Source: an uncultured Alphaproteobacteria bacterium
GTDB lineage: Bacteria > Pseudomonadota > Alphaproteobacteria > RF32 > CAG-239
DNA length: 64,000 nucleotides
Direction: 5' to 3'
Assembly (NCBI GenBank): GCA_944390455.1
Contig: CALXPU010000003.1
Location: forward strand, 89,882-153,881
Within the stretch, counting starts at the first letter, position 1. Each line of letters begins with the position of its first letter. The translations under genes were made by a program, and so were the position numbers. The notes beneath the pieces are model-generated. The model searched no databases, was not told where the DNA came from, and was given only the letters and a program-made list of their open reading frames with translations. Positions 24,049-62,448 of this stretch are shown here, one piece after another.

Positions 24049-25302
24049 TTACCACTCATCTTCCGATATTTTTTTCTTTATCGGCTTTTTATTTTTAGTG
24101 GTCGTCTTAGGAGTGGGATTTAAATAGCGACAAATCTGCCCCTTTTTAATCTTTGCAATATCTCCGCTTTCTAATATTCCGACTGAATATTTAGGTTTAA
24201 CCTCGGAAATGCGTAAAGTTGCAATTTGAGTTTCTTCTGCACCTAAAGATTCTCCGGTATATGGATCTATAATTTTTTCTCCAACACTATATACCGCATA
24301 AAGAGAACCTTTTTTGATATTTTCTCCACCAATATTAAGATATATGTTGTTGCCATTTATATTAACGATTAAGGGGGGATAAATATTCTCAATACATCTG
24401 TCGACAATCTGTGCAGCCGCTTTCTGCATAAGCAATGACAAAATATCCTGACATTTTTTACCGGATATCTCTGAGTGGCTTAACGAAACCCGAACAGAAG
24501 AAGCAAATTTAACCTGCCTGGTTGCAAATGCCAACAATCTGAAGTCTATTACGGCAGAAGCACTATAAGTTGTGAATGTATCTCCGGATAATGCTATTTT
24601 TCGCTTGTTCGCACTAATATTTAAACTTTTTATAGTTCCGGTCACAATATAGTCAGTGCCTTTGACCTGACCCAATTTTGCAATTTCGGAGCGTTTGGCG
24701 TCTTCACTTAATACAAGAGATTTTTCAAGAGCATATACATCTTCATTATCCCTGTCTAAAACCGAAAATTTTCTGGTTGCCGTAAATGCATTAACCAAGG
24801 CATCAGTTATTCCTTCAATTTGCCGGTCTGCTGTTAAAGTCGTTCCCATACAGGAAGATTTTTCGGCTTTAAAACCTAATACGGCAATTCCGCGGCGGTT
24901 ATTATCTTGTCCGGGAACTTCATATTTTTCAATTTCAACAACCATATCAACCTGATAAGTTCCGTCATCGTCTTTAATGCTGCTGACAACCTGATAACCA
25001 GAAATATAGCCGTTAATTTGTGTTAAGATACCGCTTTGGGTTTCTTTGCTAAAATGTTGTTTCGATTTTGTTTCATCGTTGTTGGTCTGTTCTGCAACGA
25101 TTGAGGATAAAGACATTGCATCTACGGCATTAACGCTGATACCGGAAACTTGGGCGATTGCTTCTTTCAATCCTTCAATAACGGCAATTTTATGACTTGC
25201 GCCATAACCGGTAACCTCAACCGAAATAGTTTTAGCCTCGGCTTGTATTGCCCATAAACAAAAAATACTGATTGCTGCAATATATTTAAAAATCGTAATC
25301 AT
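24049..25302 (-). CDS. Secreted CsgG/HfaB-FlgT-like protein (417 aa)
   Basis: A signal peptide (MITIFKYIAAISIFCLWAIQ, then AEA) is followed by VEVTGYGASHKIAVIEGLKEAI, which resembles the FlgT N-terminal domain. A CsgG-type domain comes next: GIAVLGFKAEKSS, ADRQIEGITDALVNAF, RKFSVLDRDN, and LGQVKGTDYIVTGTIKSL. The C-terminus is Lys-rich (residues about 395-417). CsgG-family proteins assemble outer-membrane secretion channels or surface-anchoring complexes, e.g. curli and holdfast. ATG 25302 is preferred to TTG 25305. It overlaps the upstream gene by 17 bases. Last gene of the six-gene phase-variable operon. Confidence 0.8.
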   Translation of the reverse strand: MITIFKYIAAISIFCLWAIQAEAKTISVEVTGYGASHKIAVIEGLKEAIAQVSGISVNAVDAMSLSSIVAEQTNNDETKSKQHFSKETQSGILTQINGYISGYQVVSSIKDDDGTYQVDMVVEIEKYEVPGQDNNRRGIAVLGFKAEKSSCMGTTLTADRQIEGITDALVNAFTATRKFSVLDRDNEDVYALEKSLVLSEDAKRSEIAKLGQVKGTDYIVTGTIKSLNISANKRKIALSGDTFTTYSASAVIDFRLLAFATRQVKFASSVRVSLSHSEISGKKCQDILSLLMQKAAAQIVDRCIENIYPPLIVNINGNNIYLNIGGENIKKGSLYAVYSVGEKIIDPYTGESLGAEETQIATLRISEVKPKYSVGILESGDIAKIKKGQICRYLNPTPKTTTKNKKPIKKKISEDEW

Positions 25303-26704
25303 CAAATTCTACTCCTCTTTGTGTGCCGGATTCTTGAGGATTATAAGTTTCTGGTGTTGAATTGGTTGTTGTAGCTTTAGCATTTTTAATGCCTTTAGCA
25401 TGTGCGGCAGTCTTTGGGGACCACATCAAAATAGTTCCTACAACTTCATGTCCCAATTGCGGATGAATATAACTCCAGCTGTGTAGCTCTCTTATTCCGG
25501 CAAAGTTAGTAATTTGAGATCTAGTCGTTGACATATTGTCTGTTGAATTTGTATAGTCAACGGATTCTATCATCTCTTCTGTAATCCCGTCATCTTCGGA
25601 AATAAGTTTCATATCTGTAGCAGCTTTACTAACCTGTGTAACCACAGATTTAAATACTGTTGATGAACGTAACAAATTTGTTAATGCCGCTCTGGCATTT
25701 GTTTTAGCCAGATTTCTGGCAGATTCCAGTTTTACCGCTTTCATTGCTTCGCTGCCTGAATTGATAACACCGGCTTGTCCGAATGATATTAATACGGGAT
25801 AACCTTCCTTATCGTATAAAAGTCTGGTTCCAAATTGATTGAATAAAACATCATCTGGCAAAATAACTTGCTCTTCTATTGTCTTAGATGATTTTTTGTT
25901 TGCTTGTGCCGGAACATTACTGCCGTTCCGCAACATAGATTTCACTAATGCAATTCTGTTCGGAGATTTGGAGACAGCAACTCTGACGGCATAGTTTCCT
26001 TTTCCGTCCGTGCCTTCAAAAGTTTGCAAAGGTATCATCCCGGATGTATCGGCAAGAGCCTTTGTTATGCTTTTTTGAGTAATAGCACTTTTTAATAATG
26101 TTTTTTTCTTTTCCTTTGGAGCAGCTTTGTATTGCGTCGAGTCAATACCTAATTTTTCCAGTTCTTGATCTAACTTTCCTCCGGTAAGAGCAACAGCTTT
26201 ATCAAACAACACATCTAATTGTTTTGCTGCCTTTTCACCAGCAAAGTCTTCTATTTTATCCCAAACAGTACCTTCTTTTCGTTCTGTTTTTAAATCCTCT
26301 TCAGTTAAAGGAGTTTGATCATCAATAAGTTCTTTCAAAATAATATTTTGATTGGTTGTTGACTGTTCCAACGCAATTTTTGTATAAGCATCGACTAATG
26401 CTTCTGTATATGCCATAGAACGGGCATCGACCCATTTGTAATTATCTGATTTAACCTTAACAATAGCATCACCATAAGCAATATTGGCACTGAAATCACA
26501 TTCCGGAAGATTTGTATCAATACCTTTTGCTTCGCAATTACTCAACATTTTGTTGGATACATTGCGTCTCCAGTTATTGTAATTGTCATCAACTTGCATA
26601 GAAGCAGATTTTTGCGGAATATTTTCAACTTCTTCCGCTGCTACAGCCAAACAGGTATTTACTGACAACAAAACTGTTGATATCATTAGCATATATTTAA
26701 ACAT
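25286..26704 (-). CDS. Secreted protein of unknown function (472 aa)
   Basis: A signal peptide (about residues 1-23, ending CLAVAA) leads an entirely extracytoplasmic protein. The recognisable part is YAVRVAVSKSPNRIALVKSMLR followed by a domain with KLESARNLAKTNARAALTNLL, a pattern of DUF6844-like proteins that I recall near CsgG/HfaB genes; the name is tentative. The C-terminus is low-complexity and ends in EFDDYDF. The position between a lipoprotein and the CsgG-like gene suggests a shared envelope complex. Confidence 0.72.
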   Translation of the reverse strand: MFKYMLMISTVLLSVNTCLAVAAEEVENIPQKSASMQVDDNYNNWRRNVSNKMLSNCEAKGIDTNLPECDFSANIAYGDAIVKVKSDNYKWVDARSMAYTEALVDAYTKIALEQSTTNQNIILKELIDDQTPLTEEDLKTERKEGTVWDKIEDFAGEKAAKQLDVLFDKAVALTGGKLDQELEKLGIDSTQYKAAPKEKKKTLLKSAITQKSITKALADTSGMIPLQTFEGTDGKGNYAVRVAVSKSPNRIALVKSMLRNGSNVPAQANKKSSKTIEEQVILPDDVLFNQFGTRLLYDKEGYPVLISFGQAGVINSGSEAMKAVKLESARNLAKTNARAALTNLLRSSTVFKSVVTQVSKAATDMKLISEDDGITEEMIESVDYTNSTDNMSTTRSQITNFAGIRELHSWSYIHPQLGHEVVGTILMWSPKTAAHAKGIKNAKATTTNSTPETYNPQESGTQRGVEFDDYDF

Positions 26705-26763
26705 TGTTATACCTCATACAAAGAGGGAGAAGCAAACACTTCTCCCTTGTTTACAATCAAAGA

Positions 26764-27468
26764 CTAAAAACCGGCGGCTTTAGACATTTCTGATTTTGCT
26801 TTTTTTACATCAATACCTTGTGCCGATGCATACTCAACAAAACTATTTCCTGTGGAAATCAAATTTTTAGTTAAAGAAGGAATTTCTTTTGCAACATTAA
26901 GTGCAACAGTCATATCTCCGCTTAAAGCTCCTGCTCTTTGGGTCCAAGGCAATGATGCTATATAGCTGCTTGTGTCTGTTACAACATTCTTTGCCGTATT
27001 AATCAACATTGCCGTACCGGCTGTTCCCACAGAATATTTTACTAAAGCACTACCAACTTTTTTCTTAGCCTGAGCATCAAGTTCTGTTTGTTCTTTCATT
27101 TTTTCTTCAATAGCTTTATTGGCCTTTTCAGAAAGTTCGACAACTTTTTCTGCGTCATCTGAGGTCAAATTCCCTGATTTTAATGCAGTTTTCTGTGTTT
27201 CCAGCTCATTGGCCAAGTCATCCAAATTAAATGCTTTAGCCAAATCAGACTGGGCTTCGGTAACGCCAGCCATAGCAACAGCATAACTAGCTACCAATTT
27301 GGCTCCAGTTAGACTGACAGCTTCAACATCAACTGTCGTTTTTTTAGCTTCTGTTCCAGAAGACGAAGCAAAATTTGCAGCATCTTTTAAACTGTCAACT
27401 GAACATCCACACATTGGAGCTACAATAAGTGCAGCGGCCAACATTTTCGTTAAATTATTTTGTAACAT
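26764..27468 (-). CDS. Putative lipoprotein (234 aa)
   Basis: The signal sequence MLQNNLTKMLAAALIVAPMCGC ends in a lipobox-like M-C-G-C, with the acylated cysteine expected near residue 22. The rest is helical, Ala/Lys-rich and probably coiled-coil (ANELETQKTALKSG..., EKANKAIEEKMKEQTEL), with one Gly/Ala-rich stretch (VGSALVKYSVGTAGTAMLI) that might insert into a membrane. No known family. In the operon, 59 bases before the 472-aa gene. Confidence 0.75.
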   Translation of the reverse strand: MLQNNLTKMLAAALIVAPMCGCSVDSLKDAANFASSSGTEAKKTTVDVEAVSLTGAKLVASYAVAMAGVTEAQSDLAKAFNLDDLANELETQKTALKSGNLTSDDAEKVVELSEKANKAIEEKMKEQTELDAQAKKKVGSALVKYSVGTAGTAMLINTAKNVVTDTSSYIASLPWTQRAGALSGDMTVALNVAKEIPSLTKNLISTGNSFVEYASAQGIDVKKAKSEMSKAAGF

Positions 27469-27497
27469 ATTATCAGTCCTTTCGTTAAAGTTAAGTT

Positions 27498-28580
27498 TTA
27501 GTACAAATCCTTGTTACCAAGTTGGTTAGATACTGTTTCAGCAGCAGATTTAGCGGCTAGACGCAACGCGTTTCTTCTTGCAGTATCTTTGTCCGGTCCC
27601 AATCCGAAGTATTGAACTGGTCCGACAGAAGCAACCTTGCGGGGAAGCTTCTTATCAATGTTCCAAACCATACCGTTAATGGAAACAATAACTTTTTGTT
27701 CACCGGAAACCGGATCAAGTTCGGGAACGGAAACATTCATATAACCAACTGCAAAATATTTGACATCACAGGATTTAGCTCCTTTGATTGCTTTATTGCG
27801 AAGATTTTGCGGAAGCTCATCGCTGGCAGAGAAAGCATTTTTTATTGAGTCAATGGAAGCACCACCACAGTTTGACAAGACATCAGCGTAATCAACAGTT
27901 TCATAGCCCATTCCGGTCAAGACCTCGTTAAAAGCAGCATCAAAATCGGTTGTGGCTAATGTTCTGTATTTTTCCTGACTGGTCTTGCGAACAATATTGC
28001 CGCCGGACGTTGTTTTGGAATAATTACTGACGCTTTCGTTAATACCGCTGCCGCTGACATGCTGTCTGGCATCGTGTTCCTGCTCGCCTTGTGAAATTGT
28101 TGTGTCCCGTGTTTTGAAAACTTTGCTTTCCGTAATTTCTCGCGCAACGAACATAAACGAGAAAGCACTTCCGTCGCCGGAAGCCATCGTGCCGGCAGTT
28201 GTTGTTCCTTTAAGCTGGGCATTAATTTTATTTTCGTTAATATCGGCCCTGATAACCAGGTTAAGCAGTTTCAGGTTTTCGTTAACATCTTCTGCAACAA
28301 TCGTATAGGAAGAAATATAGTCATCAATGTTTTTAACAACTTCATCTTCAATTTTGCTGTATTGTTGCTGCTTTGAAACATTAAAAGTTGAAACATACTG
28401 CTTTAAAGCTGCCAGCTTTGCTGCTTTTACAGCTTCAACTTTATCCTCATCTGACGGAGAACTGCTAAACAGACCTCCTTCATATTGATGCGATACCTGG
28501 CCTTTGACTTCCAGTGCTTGTGCTGAGGTTGAAGTAAACATCATTCCCAGCAGAGATAAATATGCCAATTGCTTTTTCAT
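27498..28580 (-). CDS. Secreted protein of unknown function (360 aa)
   Basis: The start is ATG 28580 (MKKQLAYLSLLGMMFTSTSA), with GGAG six bases upstream; an upstream ATG gives a poorer signal peptide. The mature part starts with LEVKGQVSHQYEGGLFSSSPSDEDKVEAVKAAKLAALKQYV, a FlgT/LPP20-like N-terminal pattern (domain in which a conserved A-x-x-x-A-L helix follows a beta strand). The C-terminal ARRNALRLAAKSAAETVSNQL is similar. A Ser/Gly-rich linker lies at about 165-205. Probably periplasmic or surface-associated with the CsgG-like protein. Confidence 0.72.
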   Translation of the reverse strand: MKKQLAYLSLLGMMFTSTSAQALEVKGQVSHQYEGGLFSSSPSDEDKVEAVKAAKLAALKQYVSTFNVSKQQQYSKIEDEVVKNIDDYISSYTIVAEDVNENLKLLNLVIRADINENKINAQLKGTTTAGTMASGDGSAFSFMFVAREITESKVFKTRDTTISQGEQEHDARQHVSGSGINESVSNYSKTTSGGNIVRKTSQEKYRTLATTDFDAAFNEVLTGMGYETVDYADVLSNCGGASIDSIKNAFSASDELPQNLRNKAIKGAKSCDVKYFAVGYMNVSVPELDPVSGEQKVIVSINGMVWNIDKKLPRKVASVGPVQYFGLGPDKDTARRNALRLAAKSAAETVSNQLGNKDLY

Positions 28581-28591
28581 AATTACTCCAT

Positions 28592-29770
28592 TCATTTACA
28601 ACGGTTAACAATTTCGTGAACCTGCTCAAATTCTTTTTCCATTTTATCAAAGGTTGCCGGATGGAATGTTTTTTCATACCATTCATCATTTACTTCACTG
28701 ATATTTTGCGAAAAACCATCAAACAGATTCATTAAAGTTTCAAGATAAGACAATCTCAAAGCAGGTTGTTGTCCTTTTAGCAAAATAACATGTTCTGTAC
28801 CTCTGAATTTGCTGTCCATATATTTTTTGTTCAAATCCGGTTGCAACATTTCAATATTTGTATAGGCAAAGAAACCTTGGGTTTGGGTTGTTTTGCTTTG
28901 TGCGTTGTCTGTCAATGTTTTGAAATTGAGAACATCAATATTGAAAACATAATCAGCACTGGGAATTTCCAAGTTATATATATCACCATTTACAAATCTG
29001 GCGGCCATTTTGCTCCCGATTGTCTGTCCTTTTGTATAGGGAAGCATCGCAACTTGTTGATTGTCTACTAAATAACGGGAAAAAGACTGTGCTATTATAG
29101 TCTTGAAATTATCTTCCTGTTGTCCCAAAGAAGATAAAATCTTTTTCGCTTCAGGCGAAATTTCTACACGATTAACTTTTAACCGGTTGCCATATTTGGG
29201 TTTTATTTGAATGTTGTTCATTTTTTCAATGGCCAAATCAAACAGATTCGTTTTTACTTCGGGATTTTCTCCGGTATAGAAACCTTCAAAAATGGCGCTT
29301 ATTTCCCTTTGGGCAGGTTTATGATCAAACAAAGTAATGTATTGTAAATTTATAGGATAAGAATTGATAACTTTCTTTTCGTTAAAGTCAAAAACCAAAA
29401 TTTGCGTATATAAATCAGCAACTAATTTATATTGAGTTGAACTTATCTGAGAAACACTAGTCGTTTCCAAATCAATTGCTAGTGACATAGCCAGAGCATC
29501 AGCGCTTTCTGTATTGCCTAAAGATGTTAAAATATTAAGGGAAGGATTATTTAGTGTTTTTAATTTTTTTACAAACATAGTATCCAAAGGCTTGTTTTTT
29601 GAAATATCATAGCTGTACGGATAATTAAGTTTATTATCTTTAAAGTCTCCGGTAAAAGAAACGCCGGCGAAATATACGTTTTGCGGAGCTTGGTACTTAG
29701 TGGTTTTAATTCCTTGTGACGCGCAAGATGATAACAGCAAAACGGCAACAAACAGTTTAATGTATTTCAT
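28592..29770 (-). CDS. Putative outer-membrane lipoprotein (392 aa)
   Basis: ATG 29770 with AAGGAAAAGC upstream gives the signal peptide MKYIKLFVAVLLLSSCASQ, whose LLSSC is a good lipobox with acylated Cys at residue 16. No family is recognised. The mature protein is a mixed alpha/beta protein with a segment resembling TolB/CsgG-like accessory folds (ADYVFNIDVLNFKTLT). The next gene starts 11 bases after its stop, and its own start overlaps the previous gene. Confidence 0.75.
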   Translation of the reverse strand: MKYIKLFVAVLLLSSCASQGIKTTKYQAPQNVYFAGVSFTGDFKDNKLNYPYSYDISKNKPLDTMFVKKLKTLNNPSLNILTSLGNTESADALAMSLAIDLETTSVSQISSTQYKLVADLYTQILVFDFNEKKVINSYPINLQYITLFDHKPAQREISAIFEGFYTGENPEVKTNLFDLAIEKMNNIQIKPKYGNRLKVNRVEISPEAKKILSSLGQQEDNFKTIIAQSFSRYLVDNQQVAMLPYTKGQTIGSKMAARFVNGDIYNLEIPSADYVFNIDVLNFKTLTDNAQSKTTQTQGFFAYTNIEMLQPDLNKKYMDSKFRGTEHVILLKGQQPALRLSYLETLMNLFDGFSQNISEVNDEWYEKTFHPATFDKMEKEFEQVHEIVNRCK

Positions 29771-30086
29771 TTGCTTTTCCTTCAACCTTAATGACATTAG
29801 AATTTAGTTTTACCGGATAAGCATAACCAAAAAATTTCTGTGTTTTTTGAAAAACCATTTCCGGAGCTAATTTTGAAGTATAGCTTATCTCTGCATAATC
29901 TTTATTAATGACCAAGACCTTGTGAGTTGTATAATATGATTGTTTTGCCATATATTTGGCATAATCAAAAACATCTTCTTCATTAATGTTTGAAAGGTAT
30001 ATGTCATATTTCTTCGGAGCCTCCAGCGTGGCCGTATAACAGCCTGATAAAAACAGTCCAAATATAAAAGTTGCAAGTATTTTCAA
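29757..30086 (-). CDS. Small putative lipoprotein, first gene of the phase-variable operon (109 aa)
   Basis: The strong ribosome site GGAGGGG at 30096-30090 lies inside the frame that opens at ATG 30098, so I place the start at TTG 30086, giving MKILATFIFGLFLSGCYTA with the lipobox L-S-G-C. No family is recognised for the short mature domain (YDIYLSNINEEDVFDYAKY...). Its promoter is on the invertible segment 71 bases upstream. The stop overlaps the next start by 14 bases. Confidence 0.72.
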   Translation of the reverse strand: MKILATFIFGLFLSGCYTATLEAPKKYDIYLSNINEEDVFDYAKYMAKQSYYTTHKVLVINKDYAEISYTSKLAPEMVFQKTQKFFGYAYPVKLNSNVIKVEGKANEIH

Positions 30087-30106
30087 AAGCCCCTCCATAC
30101 ATAAAC

Positions 30107-30244
30107 CACCGTCTATTTGTCATACTTCATCACATAAAAGAATTTTATCTATTTTTGTGATTTCATGTAGATTATACTCAATAAAAACCAATGATTGCAA
30201 GTCTTTTTAGGATATTATCCCACATTTCTATCAAATAGACGGTG
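30107..30244 (-). promoter_or_regulatory. Invertible promoter: 13-bp inverted repeats around a consensus promoter
   Basis: CACCGTCTATTTG (30107-30119) and its exact inverse CAAATAGACGGTG (30232-30244) bracket 112 bases. Inside, on the minus strand, TTGCAA (30200-30195), 18 bases, then TATAAT (30176-30171) forms a strong promoter pointing at the lipoprotein operon. Inversion would turn it toward the serine recombinase gene at 30336. The arrangement is that of Mpi/Hin-type phase-variation switches. In the orientation assembled here the operon is ON. Confidence 0.85.
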
Positions 30245-30335
30245 ATATTTGTATATCGTTTATTTTATATATCTGTTTTAGCAGTAGTTTTGTTAGTTCT
30301 TATAATCAGAAGTTAACGATTATAAGGATTTTTTT

Positions 30336-30923
30336 ATGTACTATGCATATATTCGGGTCAGTACCGACCATCAACATGTTGAAAATCAAAAGCACGAAAT
30401 TTTAACTTACAGCCAAAAACACGACATTCAGATTGATAAATGGATAGATGAAACCATTTCTTCGCGTAAACCGCTAACGGAACGAAAGCTTGGAAAATTG
30501 CTTAAGCGACTAAAGAAAGGCGATATTTTGATTGCAACGGAATTATCCCGATTGGGTCGTAATCTACTTGAAGTGATGGGAATCTTACAAAATTGTCTTG
30601 AAAAAGACTGTCAAATCTGGACATTAAAAGAAAATTATCGCCTTGGCTCAGATATACAAAGCAAAGTTTTAGCATTTGCTTTTAGTTTAGCTAGTGAAAT
30701 TGAACGACAACTAATCTCAGAGAGGACAAAAAATTCTTTGCAGCGGTTAAAAGATGAAGGCAAACACCTCGGTCGTCCACATGGATTTTCTTATCAAAAG
30801 CTTCAAAAGAAACATGCTAAAATCAAAGAACTGCTGGATAAAAATGTTTCTAAAGCGGAAATTGCCCGACTGATGGGCTGTTCTTGGATTACATTACATA
30901 GATATATAAGGAATTGTGTTTAG
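30336..30923 (+). CDS. Mpi/Hin-type serine DNA invertase (195 aa)
   Basis: A serine recombinase: YAYIRVSTDHQ contains the catalytic Ser, followed by ATELSRLGRNLLEVM (R-L-x-R) and the E-helix FAFSLASEIERQLISERT, then a C-terminal HTH (SKAEIARLMGCSWITLHRYI). The size and the KENYRLGSDIQSKVLAFAF segment match master-invertase (Mpi)-like enzymes that flip promoters. AAGGA precedes the ATG. It lies 92 bases from the right inverted repeat, so the adjacent invertible promoter is its likely target. A closely similar protein (roughly three quarters identical by eye) is encoded at 61858. Confidence 0.93.
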   Translation: MYYAYIRVSTDHQHVENQKHEILTYSQKHDIQIDKWIDETISSRKPLTERKLGKLLKRLKKGDILIATELSRLGRNLLEVMGILQNCLEKDCQIWTLKENYRLGSDIQSKVLAFAFSLASEIERQLISERTKNSLQRLKDEGKHLGRPHGFSYQKLQKKHAKIKELLDKNVSKAEIARLMGCSWITLHRYIRNCV

Positions 30924-31380: not shown

Positions 31381-31869
31381 ATGACTCAAGCAATTATTTA
31401 TGCAAGAGTAGCATCCCAACATTCTAATCTTGATACTAAAATTGATAACTTAGTAAACTATTGTAGTAACCATAAGCTATCTATAATTAAAGAATATTCT
31501 ATTTGTGCAAAACGTAAAGATACCCGTTATATCAAAAATCTATATGAAGATGTTAAGGCCCTCCCAAACAAACATATAAATATAGTAGCTTATAGTGTTA
31601 ATGACTTACTGCCAGATACAAAAATGTTAGAATTGTTTGATAACCTGATTAAAACAGGAAAGGTTAATTTGCATTTTTGTAGAGAAAATTTGATATATAA
31701 TTCTCAAACGCCAGATTCTGAATTTGTCAGGCTTCATGCTGTAGTCTTATTTTCTCAATATCACAACATAAAATCCATACCTAAGGAGAATTTACAATCC
31801 TTAGCTAACGAGATGTATATACGGCAAATGCAAGAGAATATAAGAGCTAACATTTTGAAAAATCAGTAA
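31381..31869 (+). CDS. Serine-recombinase-like protein lacking the catalytic Ser (162 aa)
   Basis: The N-terminus AIIYARVASQHSNLDTKIDNLVNYCSNHKLSIIKEYSI follows the resolvase fold of the large recombinase at 32485 (AIVFARVSSKKQ...), but the nucleophile position R-V-S reads R-V-A, and the downstream arginine motif (D-R-L-x-R) reads VNDLLPDTK. The chain stops near the end of the catalytic domain. The good ribosome site AAGGAG and intact frame argue against a decayed gene. A regulatory partner of the large recombinase is possible. Confidence 0.75.
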   Translation: MTQAIIYARVASQHSNLDTKIDNLVNYCSNHKLSIIKEYSICAKRKDTRYIKNLYEDVKALPNKHINIVAYSVNDLLPDTKMLELFDNLIKTGKVNLHFCRENLIYNSQTPDSEFVRLHAVVLFSQYHNIKSIPKENLQSLANEMYIRQMQENIRANILKNQ

Positions 31870-42592: not shown

Positions 42593-42947
42593 TCACTTTC
42601 ATACAATAAAAGTCCTTTCTGCATTAGCTACGGTGCAGACTATACCTCTATCGAATTGTTAGTGAAATATAATAAAAACGAACGACGATAAAACGAATCG
42701 GTTCAATTTTTATTATATGTAATTATAACATATTCTAATATAAATTGCAAGTTAAACATTGATAAAAATTAAGGAAAATCAATAAATTACACCATATTTT
42801 GACGTATAAACCAAGTTTATTTTCGGAGTAAAAATAATTCTTGTAATATTTTGCAATATCAATATTCAATTAAAACTCCATTTACTAACATATAAGCTAA
42901 AATCATTCTATTGTATATTTTTATGAAAATAAAATGAAAAAAATTGT

Positions 42948-44213
42948 TTAACTTTCTTTTGTTTTTAAAAGTTGTTGTATATGTTTATCAAAAATTTCTT
43001 CATATAAAATATAATAGTGTTTTTTCATTTTATAATATTCATCAATAAGATACTGAAAATCCTCCTTTAGCAATATATGAAGACCGCATTGAACAATGGT
43101 AAAAAAAACGAATTGATTAAAATTTTTTTGCCAAGACTTATTATCTCTAAAAAAAGAATATGGTTTTCTTAAAAATTTTAAAGAGTTCAAATAAATTTTC
43201 CTCACAGAATTAAAATAGTTTTCACCTAAATATAAAATAAGTTCAGAAAAAACATCTGTGATTTTTAAAGTTTCAATATTGAATTTTTCAAAATCTAAAT
43301 CAAAAATTTTATCACATAACCATTGCGACAATTGGTGCTTTGAATCATCTCTTTCTATATTTTGTATGACATGATATAATAATATATAAGATCTGGGAGC
43401 AATGTTATATGCTTCTAAAAATTTTTTAGAAATTCTATTTAACAAATGTCTTTGTTGCAATTTATATAAAATATTCTGAAATTGATTCACCTTATTATTA
43501 TATGAACAAAACCTGATAGCAAAATAAATAATTACAAATAATTTTTCATCATCAGAGAAAAAAGATTCTAATATAGAATTTATAAATTGTTCTGAAGGTA
43601 TTTCTTCAAATTTGTAATATAACTGTAAACAATAGAACATCTTTATAAAAAAATTTTGAGAATTACTATATTTTAGACTATCTAATTTAAAAAAATTTCC
43701 CAAACAAAATAAATCATCTATAAGAAGATATTTTAAATCTTCCCGGCTCGTATTTTTAAGCCAAAGATCAAATTTGCTAAAATCTATAAACATCAAAAAT
43801 TCTAAAATTTTTTTAATACCATATTTATCTTTAAATATAGCTGTTTCTTGATATAGAAAAATTCTATTAAAAGTTTCTACCGAACATCCGTTTAAAATTA
43901 AGTCTTGAAAAAACTTTATTCTATAATCATACTTATTGAATTCTAAAACAGGAATTTTGGAATCAAGAGAATTTATAAAATTATCAAAATTTTGCGAAAT
44001 AATTTTAAATAACTTATTTGATAAAAGTTCTGATCTAGAATACCCTAACAATGAACAAATAGCACATACATTTTCAAATGGAGGATTTTTATCCAAAAAC
44101 AATATAGCTTTATTAATATGCTTATCTTCAATTTTGACAGAATTGCCAAGATTCTCATTACCTTCAAAAATTATATTTTTTATATTTGAAAAAAATATTT
44201 CATTTTCAATCAT
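42948..44213 (-). CDS. Unrecognised all-helical protein, last gene of the four-gene cassette (421 aa)
   Basis: No motif I can name. The protein is very rich in Phe, Leu, Lys and Asn and appears to be wholly helical, possibly a repeat (HEAT/TPR-like) solenoid (VCAICSLLGYSRSELLSNKLFKIISQNF; NILYKLQQRHLLNRISKKFLEAY). The start overlaps the end of the PLD-like gene by 8 bases, so it is translated from the same message. A sensor or scaffold role would fit a defence cassette; this is inference. Confidence 0.68.
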   Translation of the reverse strand: MIENEIFFSNIKNIIFEGNENLGNSVKIEDKHINKAILFLDKNPPFENVCAICSLLGYSRSELLSNKLFKIISQNFDNFINSLDSKIPVLEFNKYDYRIKFFQDLILNGCSVETFNRIFLYQETAIFKDKYGIKKILEFLMFIDFSKFDLWLKNTSREDLKYLLIDDLFCLGNFFKLDSLKYSNSQNFFIKMFYCLQLYYKFEEIPSEQFINSILESFFSDDEKLFVIIYFAIRFCSYNNKVNQFQNILYKLQQRHLLNRISKKFLEAYNIAPRSYILLYHVIQNIERDDSKHQLSQWLCDKIFDLDFEKFNIETLKITDVFSELILYLGENYFNSVRKIYLNSLKFLRKPYSFFRDNKSWQKNFNQFVFFTIVQCGLHILLKEDFQYLIDEYYKMKKHYYILYEEIFDKHIQQLLKTKES

Positions 44214-48732: not shown

Positions 48733-51333
48733 TTAATCTCCTATAATAGCGTTTAATTGTTCGTCAACATTCAGACCATCTTTTGTTTTTTGAACAATGA
48801 AAAATAAACCTTTACCATTAGATTTACTTTCCCAAAGTTTGCCAATATTATTTTTTTCTCTCGTATCTGCATTATCGACAATATGTTGTCCTTTATACTC
48901 AACGACTAAAATTCTGCCGTCATTTAGCATTGCAACAAAATCGGGATAAAATTTATCAGTTGAAGTTGGCAACCAAAAGGAACTTCTGTGTCGTGCAACA
49001 TTCCTTATCCAGAATTTAACCTTTTTATTTCTATCTAGTGCTTGTGCACATTGAAATTCTTCTCCATTTTGCCCTCCATCAAACTGTGGTACACGGTTTG
49101 AACCAAGATAATGCTTTGTAAATTTATAACTTCCTCGGTAATACAACTCTCCATCATACATATTATCAAAAAACTCAAAGCCATTATCAAAATTTAATTC
49201 TATACGGGCTTCAGGACTTAAAAATGATAATTGAAATGATTGTGTTCTAGCTTTAGCAAAAGCATCATGTATTTTGGCTTTCAGCTTATTTGCCAATGCA
49301 TATTTTGCAATCATGAGCTCTGAAATGCTAATATTTCTATTTTTAACCAAATAATCGACTACTTTTGTTAGCCAAGAAATCATTATACCTTGTGAAAAAT
49401 ACGAGTTTCTTAATTGAGCATCTAACCACTTAACTAAATGAGCTTCCGTCCAATTAGAAGTATCAACAAAAGACATTGCTAATTGGTCTTCTCCTGCAAT
49501 TGAATATCTCAAACAATTATTATCAAGGTCAATCATAAAACCATTACCTTGTTTTGAAATTTTAAATTCATCAGCATCAAGTTTGTATGATGCATACTCT
49601 TCAAGATTCCAGTCAAAATCTTCAAAAACAACCTCCGCATCAGCAAACTCAAGTTGTCCTTGCACTTCAACCATCATACAAGGGACATTAAATTTTTCTC
49701 CACTTTTAGCCGGACAAGGCTCATTAAGTGTTTGTTTGTAGTTTGCAAATTTAGTTTCTAACTCAAATACTTTTATATCATCTAAATATGGCTTAATTTG
49801 TTCAATTTCTTCTTTACTGGTTTCTGCTGTAAAACAAAGGCTTTGAGTTCCATCACTCTCTTTTTGCAAAGTAATTGTTTTTGGTAACACCTTTTGCTCG
49901 ATAACAGTTTCTGGACTTAACACGATTTTGTTTTGAGATTTTACACCAAACAATCCAAAATCCGCTGGTTTTTGTTCCACAACAGACAAAGCTTCTTCAT
50001 CTGAAAATCCTTTATTTTCAAGTTTTTTAACAATACAGTCTGTTGAATCTCCAAATTTTGCAGACAATACATATGCGTAAGCCTTGTTTAAAGCCGAAAT
50101 TTTACGACTTTTTGCATATGGCATACGCATAACTCGACCTAATAACTGTTCAACCGCCGTATCACTATGTACGTTTGCTAAAGAACATAAAACATACGCA
50201 AAAGAACAATCCCAACCTTCTTTTAATGCCTGCACAGTAATAATATATCTAATAGGACAGTTTGCATCAAAAACATTTATCCCATCAAGTTCTTTTTGCT
50301 CTCCTGTTGCAATTGCTATTTCATTTTCAGGAATGTTTTGCACTTCTACTAAATGTTTTTTCAACACCTCTACATTTACTTCACCATCTTTGTCTTGTGC
50401 TTGAAACAACAAAATCGGTCGTACATAATCTTTTTCATATTCTGCAGCTTTTTCTAACTCGGCTCTTTTAGCAATAGCCTCTGTTACAGCGAATTCCCAA
50501 TTGTTATGCTCCGTCAACACAATTGGAAGTTTTATCATTTCTTCTTCTTTGAGTTCCGTGGCTCTAACATTGTATAAAGTATTATTTTTCAAACGTGGAG
50601 TTGCCGTAAATTCAATAATAGCCGAAGGATTAATACGTCCTTGCATTTCTGCACTTAAATTCGTAACAGCATTGTGTGCTTCATCAATAATCATAATCGG
50701 TCTATGAAAATATAGCAAATTTGCAAAAGAAAATTTTAATTTTCCGTTTTCATCTTTTTCCATACCTTCTGTTGCAGTTATATGTGAAAAATGAGGTTCA
50801 AAGTTTTCGTTATGTTTATAAACATTATACTTTGATGTATCTTTTTTACTAAAGGCTTGTATGGTAGATACAACAATACACAAATTTTGCTCAATATCAC
50901 TTTCTCGTATATTAAACTTTTCATCAATATCAAAAACTTTTACTTTAGAATTAAATTGCTCATCCAAAGCTTCTCTATATGGATGACGAGGATTTTTCAG
51001 AGCTTCTGAAGTTTGTTTCCTAATAGTATCAGACGGACAAAACCACAAAACAAACGGAAAATCTTTCTCCAACCAAGTTTCAGAAGCTATTTTAATTGAA
51101 TGAGCTGCTAAAATAGTCTTTCCGCCACCTGTTGGTACTTTTAAACATATTCTGGGAGTATTCGGTATGCTATCCCAAACAATATAATCTGATGCAAGTT
51201 TAGACAATCTATTTTTAATTTCTGGTTCAGAAGTAATACGTTCAAATGCATTTTTTGCACCGCATATACGAGCTGTTTCAAAAAACTTTTGTAATACATT
51301 CAGGGTATTAATTTGATATTGTTTTAATTGCAT
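48733..51333 (-). CDS. res: Type III restriction enzyme Res subunit (866 aa)
   Basis: A superfamily 2 helicase: LKVPTGGGKTILAAHS (Walker A), MIIDEAHNAV (DEAH-like), FTATPRLKNN, ALKEGWDCSFAYVLCSLAN and EQLLGRVMRMPYA (motif VI). The C-terminal nuclease is FYPDFVAMLNDGRILVVEYKGQ, with D...E-x-K. Together with the Mod methyltransferase it cleaves unmodified DNA. ATG is preceded by AAGGA. In the operon, after the coiled-coil membrane protein by 2 bases. Confidence 0.93.
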   Translation of the reverse strand: MQLKQYQINTLNVLQKFFETARICGAKNAFERITSEPEIKNRLSKLASDYIVWDSIPNTPRICLKVPTGGGKTILAAHSIKIASETWLEKDFPFVLWFCPSDTIRKQTSEALKNPRHPYREALDEQFNSKVKVFDIDEKFNIRESDIEQNLCIVVSTIQAFSKKDTSKYNVYKHNENFEPHFSHITATEGMEKDENGKLKFSFANLLYFHRPIMIIDEAHNAVTNLSAEMQGRINPSAIIEFTATPRLKNNTLYNVRATELKEEEMIKLPIVLTEHNNWEFAVTEAIAKRAELEKAAEYEKDYVRPILLFQAQDKDGEVNVEVLKKHLVEVQNIPENEIAIATGEQKELDGINVFDANCPIRYIITVQALKEGWDCSFAYVLCSLANVHSDTAVEQLLGRVMRMPYAKSRKISALNKAYAYVLSAKFGDSTDCIVKKLENKGFSDEEALSVVEQKPADFGLFGVKSQNKIVLSPETVIEQKVLPKTITLQKESDGTQSLCFTAETSKEEIEQIKPYLDDIKVFELETKFANYKQTLNEPCPAKSGEKFNVPCMMVEVQGQLEFADAEVVFEDFDWNLEEYASYKLDADEFKISKQGNGFMIDLDNNCLRYSIAGEDQLAMSFVDTSNWTEAHLVKWLDAQLRNSYFSQGIMISWLTKVVDYLVKNRNISISELMIAKYALANKLKAKIHDAFAKARTQSFQLSFLSPEARIELNFDNGFEFFDNMYDGELYYRGSYKFTKHYLGSNRVPQFDGGQNGEEFQCAQALDRNKKVKFWIRNVARHRSSFWLPTSTDKFYPDFVAMLNDGRILVVEYKGQHIVDNADTREKNNIGKLWESKSNGKGLFFIVQKTKDGLNVDEQLNAIIGD

Positions 51334-51335
51334 CG

Positions 51336-52589
51336 TTATTTATCCTTTTTATCGCAAAAACGCATAAATTTTTCTAATAAATCAATCATATCTTTAGGAA
51401 TAACAATATTATCAGTGTCTTTTATTTCATGTCTTCCGAAAAATTCTTTTGCGAGTTCGAGTTTTAATTCTCTTGCTGTTTTGCTGCCTTCTGGAATATT
51501 TTGTTTTGCTTCTCTTTCAGATTCCACAAAATCAATATTTTTGAGATATGGATCAACATTAGCTATTTTAATTTCAAAATCTCTAAGTAAAATTTCTTGG
51601 TTTCTTCTCTTTCTTGCTTCAATAGCTGTATAGAAAGCAGGTAACAGCACAACTAAAGCTATTGGTAAACGTGTTAAGACTGTCCACCAAGAGAATTCAC
51701 CTTCACTACGCATTTCAACAATTAAAGCCGCAATCATTACTATTGAAGCCATACAAAACAACCCAAATGAAATCCAAAATAGATTGTTCGCTTTTTTATG
51801 CTCTTCTTCAGCATATTTTTTATATTCACCACAAGAAACAACATCTCCAACTAAACCATATATTTTATTTATTTCATCTCTACGAGTTTCTAGTTCTGAA
51901 ATTATTTCTTTTGTTTGATTATCTAAAGCAATATATTTTTCGTTAAATCTCTTTTGTATCTCTTCTTCTGAAGCTTTTATCTGCTCAGAATATCTTTGTC
52001 CTGCAGCATCCCATTCAGAAACTATACGATTTTGTTTAGAATGAAAAGCATTATTACGAATCTTTTGATCTGTTTCAAACTGTTGTTTAAAGTTGTCTAA
52101 TAATGAATTTAACTCATTTTCTTTTTCAGTGATTTGCTTTTTTAATTCATCTACTTGCTGTTTTAAAGTTAGCACCTCATCTTCTAGAGTCTTTTTTTCA
52201 GAATTAACTTGAGCAATAACATTTTCATTTTGTCGTTTATAACTATCAATGATCTGATTGAGAGATTGCTTTGTTGCCATCTTATTAACATCAGGAATAT
52301 ATATAAGCTGAGAAATAATGTTATCAATTAATCCTGAAACATCATCAATATTGTGTGATGACTGGCTCAATATATCTTTATTTACACAATACTGGATTGC
52401 ATCTAAATGTGCTTTGATATTACTTAAATACATAGGATTACATACAATAGCACCAATTCCATTTACTCGGCTCTCCAAAATCGGGATAATTGATTTGAGA
52501 CGTTCATATATAGCCGTATTTTGGTCATTAAGTTGAACTTTTTCTAGTGTTTCTTTTAATTTGGCTATTGGTGTAATTAAATCTATCAT
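51336..52589 (-). CDS. Coiled-coil membrane protein inside the type III R-M operon (417 aa)
   Basis: A long coiled coil runs from about 120 to 245 (EKKTLEDEVLTLKQQVDELKKQITEKENELNS...). Two membrane helices follow (FWISFGLFCMASIVMIAALIV; LPIALVVLLPAFYTAI) and a soluble C-terminus of about 90 residues. I cannot name the family. It stops 2 bases before the Res start; a membrane component between Mod and Res is not part of standard type III systems. Confidence 0.78.
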   Translation of the reverse strand: MIDLITPIAKLKETLEKVQLNDQNTAIYERLKSIIPILESRVNGIGAIVCNPMYLSNIKAHLDAIQYCVNKDILSQSSHNIDDVSGLIDNIISQLIYIPDVNKMATKQSLNQIIDSYKRQNENVIAQVNSEKKTLEDEVLTLKQQVDELKKQITEKENELNSLLDNFKQQFETDQKIRNNAFHSKQNRIVSEWDAAGQRYSEQIKASEEEIQKRFNEKYIALDNQTKEIISELETRRDEINKIYGLVGDVVSCGEYKKYAEEEHKKANNLFWISFGLFCMASIVMIAALIVEMRSEGEFSWWTVLTRLPIALVVLLPAFYTAIEARKRRNQEILLRDFEIKIANVDPYLKNIDFVESEREAKQNIPEGSKTARELKLELAKEFFGRHEIKDTDNIVIPKDMIDLLEKFMRFCDKKDK

Positions 52590-52765
52590 TTTTAAAATCC
52601 TAAAATTTTTTACGAATATATCATACTTCGCTTCGTCTTGTAAATTTCAAACAATATTTTTTTTATAATAGTACGAATATTTTTTAACCTTTCTTTAATC
52701 GTTGAAGACAGATATAACGATTGTTGTAGTTCTTTTGTTTGCTCTAATAATTCATTTTTTTGCAC

Positions 52766-52777
52766 CACATATATGTG
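52766..52777. promoter_or_regulatory. 12-bp palindrome CACATATATGTG
   Basis: A perfect palindrome in the 218-base gap between the DUF4393 gene and the coiled-coil gene, within GCACCACATATATGTGC. The gap is long enough for a promoter driving the coiled-coil/Res/DUF5655 genes. It may be a dimeric repressor site. Confidence 0.45.
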
Positions 52778-52807
52778 CTGTTTCAATAAACTAGTACATT
52801 GAAAATA

Positions 52808-53614
52808 TTATTCTGATATTCTTTCATCCTCATTTATTCTTTTCCTTTCTAAACAGTCTAGCATTGAATACCCAAATTCCGTAAGATAGACTCCTATCAT
52901 AGGTTCATTTGGTTGGCGACTATTTGATAACCTTTGATTAAAAAATTTTGTAATTATTCCGAGTTTTTCTAACAATATAATCGATGTACTATTTTCATTA
53001 TAGATTGGATATAATGCATCTATGATATTTTCTCGGTTAAAGGTTTCACCATTATAGTACACGCTATGAATTTTTCCATAAGCTCCAGTTATTTGATTTA
53101 TTATCACCCAAATATTATCGTGAATAGATATTTGAGATTGCTTTTGATAAATTTCTTTCAGTAAGATTGCTTCTTCACTACTAATCTGGGATAGTATTTC
53201 TGCATATTGTAATTGTATCGGATTATAACTTGTTGCTGCTTCAACTAGTAATTTTGCCCATAAATCATGCATTTTTTCTTCGTGTTCTAAAGATAGCTTA
53301 TCAAATAATGGAATTGCACCTTTTGGGGGAATAGGATTTATTTGAATGCCCAAAATTTTTATAATATGTTCAGCTTTTAATCCTATACGATAAAATGTTT
53401 CTGCTCTATATCTTTCAACCTTTGCTTCTCTCATTGATGGAAAAAACATTGCAATAGCATCGGCTATATTATTAAAGCACCCATTAAAACTCATTAAAGT
53501 ATTTTGACTAAAATTATCGCTTCCTATATTGTTGTTACTAGCAATTGCATTATTATTGAGATTATCGCTTAATGCTTTATTATCACTTATAAATTTATTT
53601 TTACTAAATCCCAT
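52808..53614 (-). CDS. DUF4393 (Abi-alpha-like) protein (268 aa)
   Basis: After an Asn/Ser-rich N-terminus (about 1-45), MFFPSMREAKVERYRAETFYRIGLKAEHIIKILG, PPKGAIPLFDKLSLEHEEKMHDLWAKLLVEAATS and ILSQISSEEAILLKEIY match the DUF4393 pattern, a family associated with abortive infection. Its gene lies 3 bases after the Mod stop. The function in the locus is unknown. Confidence 0.8.
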   Translation of the reverse strand: MGFSKNKFISDNKALSDNLNNNAIASNNNIGSDNFSQNTLMSFNGCFNNIADAIAMFFPSMREAKVERYRAETFYRIGLKAEHIIKILGIQINPIPPKGAIPLFDKLSLEHEEKMHDLWAKLLVEAATSYNPIQLQYAEILSQISSEEAILLKEIYQKQSQISIHDNIWVIINQITGAYGKIHSVYYNGETFNRENIIDALYPIYNENSTSIILLEKLGIITKFFNQRLSNSRQPNEPMIGVYLTEFGYSMLDCLERKRINEDERISE

Positions 53615-53617
53615 TAT

Positions 53618-55165
53618 TTACCTCGCTTTGATGTCATAAGGAGTTTGTTTGAATTCTATATTAAGAGCTTTAAGGCGAGGCAGGCTAATACGAGAACTCT
53701 CTCCATAAATAACCAACTTATCATACGGTTTATGTTCCATATCACTCAAAATTACGTCTAAAGTTTTTGATGTGAGGACATTTCCACCATCAATTCTTTT
53801 ATCTCTTAAAATACCATTATACAGCAATGCATAAGCCACATTATCTTTCATTCCTAAAAAAGTTGATTTCACGGCTGGCTTATTAAATGGTGTTTTTGTT
53901 TCCGTAAACCAAATATGGGCTGACAAGTTTTCAAAACTTATCCTTTCGTTAATCTGTCCTTCTGAATTGAAGACTTCATCTCCTAATTTATAAAAACGAA
54001 ATCCGCCACCGCCTTGCCAATTAACAAATTTAGAAATACCACCTTGTTCACCATCAACTACCGCTTTCAATCTTGGGACACAATGTGTAACAGCATGATT
54101 TCCCATTTCTATGCCGATATACCTCCGCCCCATTTTTTGTGCAACAGCAGCCGTTGTACCTGACCCAAGGAAACTATCAAGGACTAAATCTCCGGGGTTA
54201 GAGGCAAGTATTAAAACACGTTCAATCAATCTTTCTGGTTTTGGTGTTGCAAAAACGTCATTCGAATTAAATTCTTTTACTTCTTTTTTAGCATCTTGAT
54301 TATGCCCCACTTCTGTATATGGCCAAACAGTTAGAGATGTAGAACCTTGTTTTACATCAGAAAGAAACCTTTTTATAGCTGGAACATTATTACCTGTAGG
54401 GCCAAACCAAATTCTATTATCCCGTTGCAATTCTTCAAAGCGTTCTTTACTCACTACCCAACATCGACTTTCTGGAGGTGTGACTATTCTCCCTGTTGGT
54501 GTTTTAATTGGATAATCACAGTTGGCGGTATAGGTTTTTACAGATAAATCTCCCGCCTTCCATGGTCCTCTTGGATCATTATCAGGATTTTTATATCTTG
54601 CATTCATTTCATCTGAACGAGGCAATAGATTAGGACGCCATATCGTTTTATTTTTTGCATAAACCATTATGAAATCATGATTATCTGACAACCATTTTGC
54701 ATCATTTGCCGGAGCATATTTTTTTTGCCATATTACATTACACACAAAATTCTGTCGTCCAAAAATTTCATCACAAAGAACCTTGCAATATGCTTGTTCT
54801 GTATCATCCAAGGAAATCCATATACTTCCATCTTCTCTAAGAAATTCTTTTAAGAGCTCTAATCTTGGCTGCATCATAGAAAGCCAAGTTGAATGTTCAA
54901 GATTATCGTCATATTGAAGAGTTTTTCCATCGCTTGTAAAACGAGAGCCTGTATTGTAAGGTGGATCAATATAGATACACTTTACTTGTCCTGCATAAAA
55001 TGGCAATAAAGCCTTTAATGCATCAAGATTATCACCTTGAACAACCATGTTTTCAGTATTTTTGTCTCCATAACCAAGCTCCGGAACTTCTTCCAACAGA
55101 CGATATGGCGTATTATTTGCTACTTTTAAAGCTTCATCCCGACCTAACCAATCCAAAATAGGCAT
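53618..55165 (-). CDS. mod: Type III DNA-methyltransferase Mod (adenine, beta class; 515 aa)
   Basis: VVQGDNLDALKALLPFYAGQVKCIYIDPPYNTGSRF is motif IV with DPPYNTGS, and LVLDSFLGSGTTAAVAQKMGRRYIGIEMG is motif I. Motif order IV then I is that of beta-class N6-adenine methylases of type III systems. The target-recognition segment lies between (about 190-300). Its final ~90 residues look like the Mod C-terminal domain (LSDMEHKPYDKLVIYGESSRI). It recognises the site for both modification and restriction; the specificity is not inferable. Confidence 0.92.
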   Translation of the reverse strand: MPILDWLGRDEALKVANNTPYRLLEEVPELGYGDKNTENMVVQGDNLDALKALLPFYAGQVKCIYIDPPYNTGSRFTSDGKTLQYDDNLEHSTWLSMMQPRLELLKEFLREDGSIWISLDDTEQAYCKVLCDEIFGRQNFVCNVIWQKKYAPANDAKWLSDNHDFIMVYAKNKTIWRPNLLPRSDEMNARYKNPDNDPRGPWKAGDLSVKTYTANCDYPIKTPTGRIVTPPESRCWVVSKERFEELQRDNRIWFGPTGNNVPAIKRFLSDVKQGSTSLTVWPYTEVGHNQDAKKEVKEFNSNDVFATPKPERLIERVLILASNPGDLVLDSFLGSGTTAAVAQKMGRRYIGIEMGNHAVTHCVPRLKAVVDGEQGGISKFVNWQGGGGFRFYKLGDEVFNSEGQINERISFENLSAHIWFTETKTPFNKPAVKSTFLGMKDNVAYALLYNGILRDKRIDGGNVLTSKTLDVILSDMEHKPYDKLVIYGESSRISLPRLKALNIEFKQTPYDIKAR

Positions 55166-61606: not shown

Positions 61607-61857
61607 GAATACAAACTGTCAAAAATCACCATGTTAGCAACCTGATTGCTAACTAACTATAAATACAATAAAAACACATTATTTTCTTTTGTGTGTAAAT
61701 AAAAAACATTTATCTTGAAAATATTTGATATGATAACCGTACTTAATATTAAAAATAAATTATGGTTTTTGAACGATGCTTATTTTTTAGCATACTTTAT
61801 CTGATAATTCTTTTCTGTTCTTATAAGTAGTTTAACAACTATTTATGAGGACTAATT
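61607..61857. other. Backbone side of attR and upstream region of the second Mpi-type gene
   Basis: GTTAGCAA / TTGCTAAC (61628-61650 region) is an 8-bp hairpin, perhaps the original tRNA-Gln terminator. Further on ATGCT-TATTTTTT-AGCAT is another small stem. CTTATAA...GTTTAAC preceding the ATG resembles the region before the 30336 recombinase (CTTATAATC...GTTAACG). No perfect inverted repeats like those at 30.1 kb were found here. Confidence 0.5.
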
Positions 61858-62448
61858 ATGATATATGGGTATATAAGGGTCAGTACTGACCATCAAAATA
61901 CAGCGAATCAACATCATGAAATTGAATTATTTGCTCAAAAACAAGAAATTATCATTGATAAATGGATTCAAGAAGTCATTTCGTCCAGAAAGCCTTTATC
62001 GGAGCGTAAATTAGGAAAACTTCTTAAAAAGCTAAAAAAAGGTGATATTCTTATAGCAACAGAATTATCTAGATTAGGTAGAAATTTGCTTGAAGTTATG
62101 GGAATTTTACAAAAATGTTTGGAAAAAGATTGCCAAATTTGGACCTTAAAAGAAAATTATAGATTAGGTGCAGATATACAATCCAAAGTATTAGCCTTTG
62201 CTTTTAGTTTAGCTAGTGAAATTGAACGACAACTCATTTCTGAACGCACTAGACTTTCTCTTCAAAGGCTTAAAGATGAAGGAAAACATCTTGGTCGCCC
62301 TTATGGAACTTCTTATCAAAAACTCCAAAAGGAACATGATAGAATAAAAAGATTAGTAGAAAAAGGCTTAACCAAAGCGGAAATAGCTCGAAGTCTTGGA
62401 TGTTCTTGGTTGACTATTCACCGATACATACAAAGAAATTTCAAGTAA
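61858..62448 (+). CDS. Mpi-type serine recombinase, chromosomal copy (196 aa)
   Basis: YGYIRVSTDHQ carries the catalytic Ser, then ATELSRLGRNLLEVM and FAFSLASEIERQLISERT as in the island copy at 30336, including long identical blocks (for instance KENYRLG.DIQSKVLAFAF). The C-terminal HTH is TKAEIARSLGCSWLTIHRYI. It lies 250 bases outside attR, so it is probably backbone-encoded. GAGGA precedes ATG. A terminator follows. Confidence 0.93.
   Translation: MIYGYIRVSTDHQNTANQHHEIELFAQKQEIIIDKWIQEVISSRKPLSERKLGKLLKKLKKGDILIATELSRLGRNLLEVMGILQKCLEKDCQIWTLKENYRLGADIQSKVLAFAFSLASEIERQLISERTRLSLQRLKDEGKHLGRPYGTSYQKLQKEHDRIKRLVEKGLTKAEIARSLGCSWLTIHRYIQRNFK

Follow-up and report, generated by a model that had tools for sequence, protein, structure and literature searches.

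The stretch of DNA analysed here, a 64-kb window on the genome of an uncultured bacterium that is probably a gut-dwelling alphaproteobacterium (its family is found mainly in animal-gut MAGs), contains a short intergenic segment framed by inverted repeats (Table 1). Six open reading frames on the same strand run left from this segment (24049-30098), and a gene for a serine invertase of the Mpi family lies to its right. As the original prediction had described them, the repeats are perfect over 13 bp, reading CACCGTCTATTTG on the left and CAAATAGACGGTG on the right, and they enclose a spacer of 112 bases. When extended, the arms reach 23 bp (87%), and the left arm contains ATACATAAACCACCGTCTATTTG. 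Inverted repeats around an intergenic promoter-like site are the arrangement by which invertons are recognised.

Table 1. Features of the locus, with positions in the window.
Feature	Position	Strand	Description
Left inverted repeat	30097..30119	+	23-bp arm; perfect 13-bp core 30107-30119, core found in G040 too
Right inverted repeat	30232..30254	-	23-bp arm; perfect 13-bp core 30232-30244
Invertible segment	30107..30244	.	138 bp including cores; opposite way round in G040 (L149 2509-2645)
Predicted promoter in segment	30171..30200	-	TTGCAA (30195-30200) N18 TATAAT (30176-30171), faces operon
Gene 1	29757..30098	-	Small lipoprotein; lipobox LSGC; probable start TTG 30086
Gene 2	28592..29797	-	401-aa predicted lipoprotein (LSSC); no Pfam family over cut-off
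Gene 3	27498..28595	-	365 aa, signal-like N terminus; no Pfam family over cut-off
Gene 4	26764..27468	-	234 aa, signal-like N terminus; no Pfam family over cut-off
Gene 5	25286..26704	-	DUF6844 protein, 472 aa; Pfam PF20891
Gene 6	24049..25305	-	CsgG-domain protein, 418 aa; Pfam PF03783; fold searches
Predicted own promoter of invertase, outside segment	30278..30306	+	TTAGCA N17 TATAAT; in G040 too
Leader dyad/hairpin	30299..30326	+	30299-30307 with 30318-30326; overlaps part of invertase ribosome-binding site
Mpi-family serine invertase	30336..30923	+	195 aa; Pfam PF00239; NCBIfam NF009949

The probable TTG start of gene 1 lies behind GGAGGGG (30090-30096, minus strand), and from this start the product carries a lipoprotein-like signal ending in LSGC. 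Sequence searches of the PDB returned no match for gene 3 and nothing significant for gene 6. The gene 6 product contains a CsgG domain at residues 132-284 (43.7 bits, cut-off 20.8), and its AlphaFold2 model has a mean pLDDT of 79 and a pTM of 0.65. The best full-length Foldseek match of this model is FlgT, over 407 columns and at a low TM of 0.26-0.30, and by Z-score CsgG and FlgT are about equal (13.6 and 13.0). The earlier description of the protein as CsgG/HfaB-type thus holds for its middle domain but not for its full length. A flagellar role is unlikely because FlgI (PF02119), used as a single marker, had no match in the window genome, G000, which is 91.9% complete; the product may instead act as an assembly associated with the outer membrane.

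Within the segment, a left-facing promoter-like site matches the consensus at 10 of 12 positions. Its place and direction are those predicted, although the word consensus is generous for the -35 box, which matches at 4 of 6. Sites of this kind are near chance in number in the A+T-rich DNA here (3 found, 2.0 expected). TTGCAA N18 TATAAT elements recur in the corresponding segments of two other genomes, G040 and G042.

In G040 (CALXTF010000022.1), which belongs to the same family and a different genus, the same locus is present with the segment inverted. Window positions 27598-30922 align to it at 89% identity, with 30097-30253 on the opposite strand at 94.9%; for the segment, 136 of 138 positions match when it is inverted, as against 93 of 154 columns in the same strand. 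The flanks are 94-99% identical (283 of 301 columns on the left and 90 of 91 on the right). The original prediction had proposed a search of other assemblies of the species for the inverted form; G040, of another genus, provides a natural inverted copy with unchanged outer flanks, as would be expected of a promoter on an invertible segment beside an Mpi-type invertase. The 13-bp arms are perfect and the recombinase frame is intact in both genomes, the operon, switch and invertase form a unit common to both that extends to where the invertase gene ends, and the promoter in the inverted segment of G040 faces the invertase gene. The G040 contig begins within gene 3, so that only operon genes 1-3 are visible. 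What can be read directly from the DNA is therefore two orientations between unchanged outer flanks, the repeats and a conserved promoter-like site, the orientations being seen between two genomes that are each represented by one assembly.

The arm score of the window switch, 14, was equalled or beaten in 0.32% of 2780 dinucleotide shuffles, which were generated from sequence upstream of 139 related recombinases, not from the window site alone. A perfect inverted repeat of at least 13 bp with a spacer of 60-200 bases occurs at one other place in the window (42929-43033), an A+T-rich repeat of 14 bp with a 77-base spacer at the low end of the open reading frame 42948-44213. In the window genome, the exact 13-mer has two copies, both at the window switch. 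One copy with a single mismatch lies on another contig, its nearest neighbouring match of any kind being more than 3 kb off, and 22 matches have two mismatches, giving 25 at up to two mismatches against 58 for the reversed control pattern. A master invertase, in which one recombinase serves many scattered sites, was also considered; the confinement of the exact 13-mer to the window switch speaks against it, and looser sites are possible. With no further copy of the exact 13-bp site in the genome, the invertase appears to form a local unit with its sites.

The invertase matches the NCBIfam Mpi model over residues 1-193 (275.8 bits, cut-off 272), and its open reading frame begins 91 bases past the right repeat; family and place agree with the original prediction, and the distance is one base shorter than the 92 it gave. 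The YxRxS and SRLGR motifs, whose serine and arginines are presumably the catalytic residues, are intact, as shown by alignment with the invertase 4m6f and with paralogues in which these motifs are missing. This DNA invertase of known structure, which we take to be Gin, is a sequence relative of the window protein (E 4.9e-12). The genome of the window holds seven matches to the invertase at E ≤ 0.001. The original prediction placed the envelope operon on an island; integrase and recombinase genes lie nearby, and a large serine recombinase is encoded at 32485. A second Mpi-type invertase (61858-62448) is 81% identical to the first; its upstream repeat is degraded-looking (61620-61632 versus 61755-61772), and its switch looks as if locked. 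Just downstream of the first invertase, a resolvase-domain open reading frame (31381-31869, 162 aa) lacks the catalytic serine (YARVAS) and the SRLGR arginines, and its product is probably inactive. The window also contains a restriction-like cluster (48733-55165) with ResIII helicase and N6/N4 methylase genes and an AAA ATPase gene nearby. Viral contigs searched for an encoder of such a recombinase gave none; the best match in the phage search was 57% identical, and among plasmids the one match was distant, to an Mpi-family gene of Aureispira.

Gene 2 is encoded in 4 of the 152 family genomes searched (G000, G040, G128 and G133), and the DUF6844 gene likewise in four (G000, G128, G133 and G159); the G133 contig begins within gene 2. 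G128 carries all six operon genes in the same order, at 51-83% amino acid identity. The 19 kb fetched around its operon contain no Mpi match, and its nearest Mpi-like gene, 58% identical, is on another contig. Upstream of the G128 operon, TTGCAA is found with a -10-like TATAGT, and a 48-column stretch aligns in the operon-facing direction to the segment promoter with a score of 24, against at most 15 in 200 mononucleotide shuffles and 11 on the opposite strand. The 400 bases around this site contain neither CACCG nor CGGTG and no inverted repeat above score 9, the best being 9 bp long and A+T-rich. Because the operon of G128 is likewise faced by a homologous promoter-like site, with neither an invertase gene nor such a repeat beside it, the window most likely shows the ON state. 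The orientation originally proposed for the operon as drawn is thus supported by both G128 and the inverted copy in G040. The promoter seems native to this operon, with framing repeats in the window and in G040.

We interpret the 138-bp segment as a phase-variation switch of the six-gene envelope operon that is flipped by the adjacent Mpi-type invertase, and assign this reading a probability of roughly 0.88. The invertase would invert the segment at the 13-bp repeats. In the ON state, as in the window, the segment promoter would be active and drive the operon; in the OFF state, as in G040, it would point away from the operon and toward the invertase gene, and cells of both states would be expected within one population.

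This reading has to be weighed against others. The segment might be invertible but owe most of its flipping to a different recombinase, in which case the adjacent gene would be a passenger. Candidates exist among the seven recombinase matches in the genome, which has both the second Mpi-type enzyme and the large serine recombinase, but the exact 13-bp site is found at the window switch only, the repeats keep a similar distance to the adjacent recombinase in close relatives, and the whole unit is shared with G040; we regard a passenger role as quite unlikely. It is also unlikely that a once-active switch has since become locked, with each orientation a fixed relic of old events. The comparison used one genome per species, a single old inversion could separate two genera, and the degraded-looking repeat at the second Mpi locus suggests that decay does happen in this genome; against this, arms and recombinase frame are intact in both genomes and the recombinase keeps its serine and arginine motifs.

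Inverted repeats are common in A+T-rich DNA, and those described here could be an operator or a hairpin, with the arrangement in G040 an assembly error. This is highly improbable given a segment that matches in inverted form at 136 of 138 positions between unaltered flanks, and like pairs are seen at other loci, such as L214 and L218. A mis-join at the repeats is itself unlikely, because the perfect arms of 13 bp are shorter than the k-mers that assemblers usually employ and thus too short to mislead them.

If the segment is a switch flipped by its neighbour, expression of the invertase may itself depend on orientation. The promoter of G040 faces the invertase gene, and by position it is possible that the OFF orientation raises recombinase levels, a feedback that had been proposed. 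Among 33 switches judged at a 2-bit margin, the promoter points to the invertase in 17 and to the left gene in 5 and is undecided in 11; 11 of the 33 promoter scores lie above the shuffled 95th percentile, so many of these directions are soft, and two of the switches (L157 and L191) have arms made only or nearly only of A and T and may be chance. Read-through transcripts of the OFF state would include a leader hairpin that takes in part of the ribosome-binding site and would probably weaken invertase translation, and a transcript starting at the predicted promoter of the invertase itself, being shorter, would be free of the 5' arm of this hairpin.

The hairpin is conserved in 17 distinct leaders: of its 13 pairs, 4 show changes on both sides, and 91.9% of the cells pair (G-U in 23 of 221). 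These leaders come from a set of 18 of 39 that was chosen by leader type and ease of reference and is biased toward the hairpin. When partners were dealt anew, 86.8% of cells paired on average and 9 of 500 shuffles reached four such pairs; slid pairing gave 35-51%. A dyad of score at least 8 is present in 15 of the 39 leaders. Leader hairpins guarding against read-through are known for some transposases, and our reading is that the predicted hairpin would protect the invertase in this way. Alternatively, the dyad may be a protein-binding operator.

The window switch is apparently one of many in its bacterial family. In a sample of 90 genomes, an Mpi-like match at E < 1e-40 was found in 39 of 50 genomes of the family and in 0 of 40 outside it. 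A wider comparison used 161 distinct recombinases from fetched loci, with genes located by tblastn, matches below 100 residues dropped and identical copies merged. This is a convenience sample in which 73 of the 161 come from one locus set, mostly Alphaproteobacteria MAGs with non-alphaproteobacterial records that include L202 (Bacteroidota) and L186 and L204 (Gastranaerophilales). The repeat census covered the 139 recombinases with 300 bases upstream and a matched start, the other 22 being dropped. Repeats scoring at least 11 lie upstream of 24 of the 41 recombinases at 72% identity or more, 3 of 13 at 62-72% and 10 of 85 below 62%, compared with 4.9% of 2780 shuffles and 2.8% of 318 other stretches. 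At the other 17 of these 41 close relatives, no repeat reaches this score, and a recognisable switch is thus not universal. Where close relatives have repeats, these lie at a similar distance from the adjacent recombinase; a AAACCACCGTTT-like arm motif is found in many of them, and AACGAAC-type arms in some more distant relatives. The remark in the original prediction that few such switches are known in Alphaproteobacteria fits the literature covered, but in this family they look common.

Further pairs of inverted segments, with shorter or trivial minus-strand pairs left uncounted, were found between G042 and G040 (78.6% over 84 columns) and between L053 and L153 (71.3% over 150 columns). The segment of L214 is inverted relative to those of L107, L117, L207, L210, L212, L213, L218 and L222 at 80.8-99.2% (99.2% for L218), and that of L221 is likewise inverted relative to five of these eight at 72-82%. 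The L214 group is a second switch family. Before the invertase, its segment occupies positions of about -178 to -49, and its left-hand genes differ among the loci whose left gene was listed. Contigs end within 300 bases of the invertase upstream in 17 of 161 cases and downstream in 8 of 161, a weak enrichment that is suggestive only (one truncated gene was left out upstream and one counted downstream).

The genes placed beside such switches, referred to here as cargo, were surveyed at 65 loci with at least 60% identity and 300 bases upstream, the cargo gene being the longest left-facing open reading frame with a start at a distance of 60-450 bases from the invertase; up to 2500 bases of it were read. 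One was found at 55 loci and absent at 10; besides the window's own gene, 30 of the 55 were scanned with Pfam, and the cargo of L199 with PADLOC only. Where repeats score at least 11, the Pfam families comprise glycosyltransferase 2 (L150, L186), MBOAT (L170) and hexapeptide transferase (L192), and the same class of loci holds type III methyltransferases (L081, L158), type II methyltransferases by PADLOC (L183, L189, L200), BrxA (L057), a YadA anchor (L209) and resolvase paralogues (L159, L178, L195). At score 10, which 12% of shuffles attain, are found SNF2/HKD (L082), an EcoRI methylase (L089), an M23 peptidase (L157), a restriction enzyme (L188) and ankyrins (L191), and the scanned loci L053, L087, L171, L174, L155 and L199 have weaker repeats (score 7-9). 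For 9 of the 30 scanned cargo genes, no Pfam family was found (L153, L166, L183, L171, L152, L189, L090, L182 and L200). The BrxA gene of L057 (1878-2462), a component of BREX defence, adjoins a repeat-flanked segment and an Mpi-like invertase, and phase-variable BREX is a possible reading of this locus.

In 11 of the 65 loci the left gene is a resolvase relative, and a fragment of such a gene is present at L041. Both SRLGR arginines are missing from all 12 of these left-side paralogues, and the catalytic serine is replaced by Asn in nine and kept in three; those of L203 and L204 are near-identical. Invertase and paralogue stand head to head at L153, L159, L178, L176, L165, L083, L180, L195, L203, L204, L095 and L041, and several of these pairs enclose a repeat-flanked segment. 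We propose that the catalytically dead paralogues may bind the sites without cutting them.

The best-known cases of promoter inversion by site-specific recombinases come from Bacteroidales and Gammaproteobacteria. Like the Mpi promoters of Bacteroides fragilis, the window switch combines a recombinase of the NCBIfam Mpi family with short repeats around a promoter and envelope or surface targets (PMC4747536; PMC8375218). The B. fragilis enzyme is described as a master for 13 regions (PMC4747536), whereas the window genome has only one exact site pair. The published Mpi repeat, ARACGTTCGTN (PMC8375218), differs from the window left arm, AAACCACCGT, with which it agrees by eye at 7 of 10 positions, and is resembled by the AACGAAC-type arms of the distant relatives. 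As with the Hin/Gin serine invertases, the invertase gene adjoins its segment and its product is related in sequence to 4m6f; unlike Hin, whose gene lies within its own segment (PMC5903667), the window invertase is encoded outside it, and just 138 bp are inverted, in contrast to Hin and Gin.

The gut invertons of hCom2 (PMC11892184) are similar in that they bear promoters and lie near surface genes and invertases. That study describes nearby invertases as generally “non-regulatable” by the promoter of the inverton, inverton group 145 being the one possible exception, whereas the promoter of the window switch faces the invertase when the segment lies in one of its two orientations. None of the terms Alphaproteobacteria, Proteobacteria and Pseudomonadota turned up in a word search of the text of PMC11892184, and a read-based survey reports inversions in 0 of 4 alphaproteobacterial samples (PMC5903667). 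No title on Mpi-type switches in Alphaproteobacteria appeared among the matches listed, and Jiang et al. (2019) may list alphaproteobacterial invertons. Related literature includes PMC10939037, PMC11868660, PMC12306168 and PMC13001222.

Taken together, these comparisons invite a broader and more tentative reading, to which we would give somewhat less than an even chance. A portable cassette of less than 1 kb, made up of a dedicated Mpi-type invertase and its own invertible promoter, would have spread through an uncultured family of gut Alphaproteobacteria and been placed before envelope operons, glycan genes and anti-phage systems including BREX. The leader hairpin would guard against read-through from the cassette's own flipped promoter, and in a subset of loci the flip would alternate between the active invertase and a head-to-head dead paralogue, forming a self-limiting toggle. 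An invertible promoter with its own invertase is a known kind of system, and the larger set has apparently been little described so far. The family, represented mainly by animal-gut MAGs, seems to rely on many units of one enzyme and one switch each. The promoter of one operon is free of repeats in G128 and framed by them in G040 and the window, so that the way in which a phase-variable operon arises becomes testable. Defence genes under phase variation would, in uncultured gut bacteria, be important for the dynamics between phages and their hosts.
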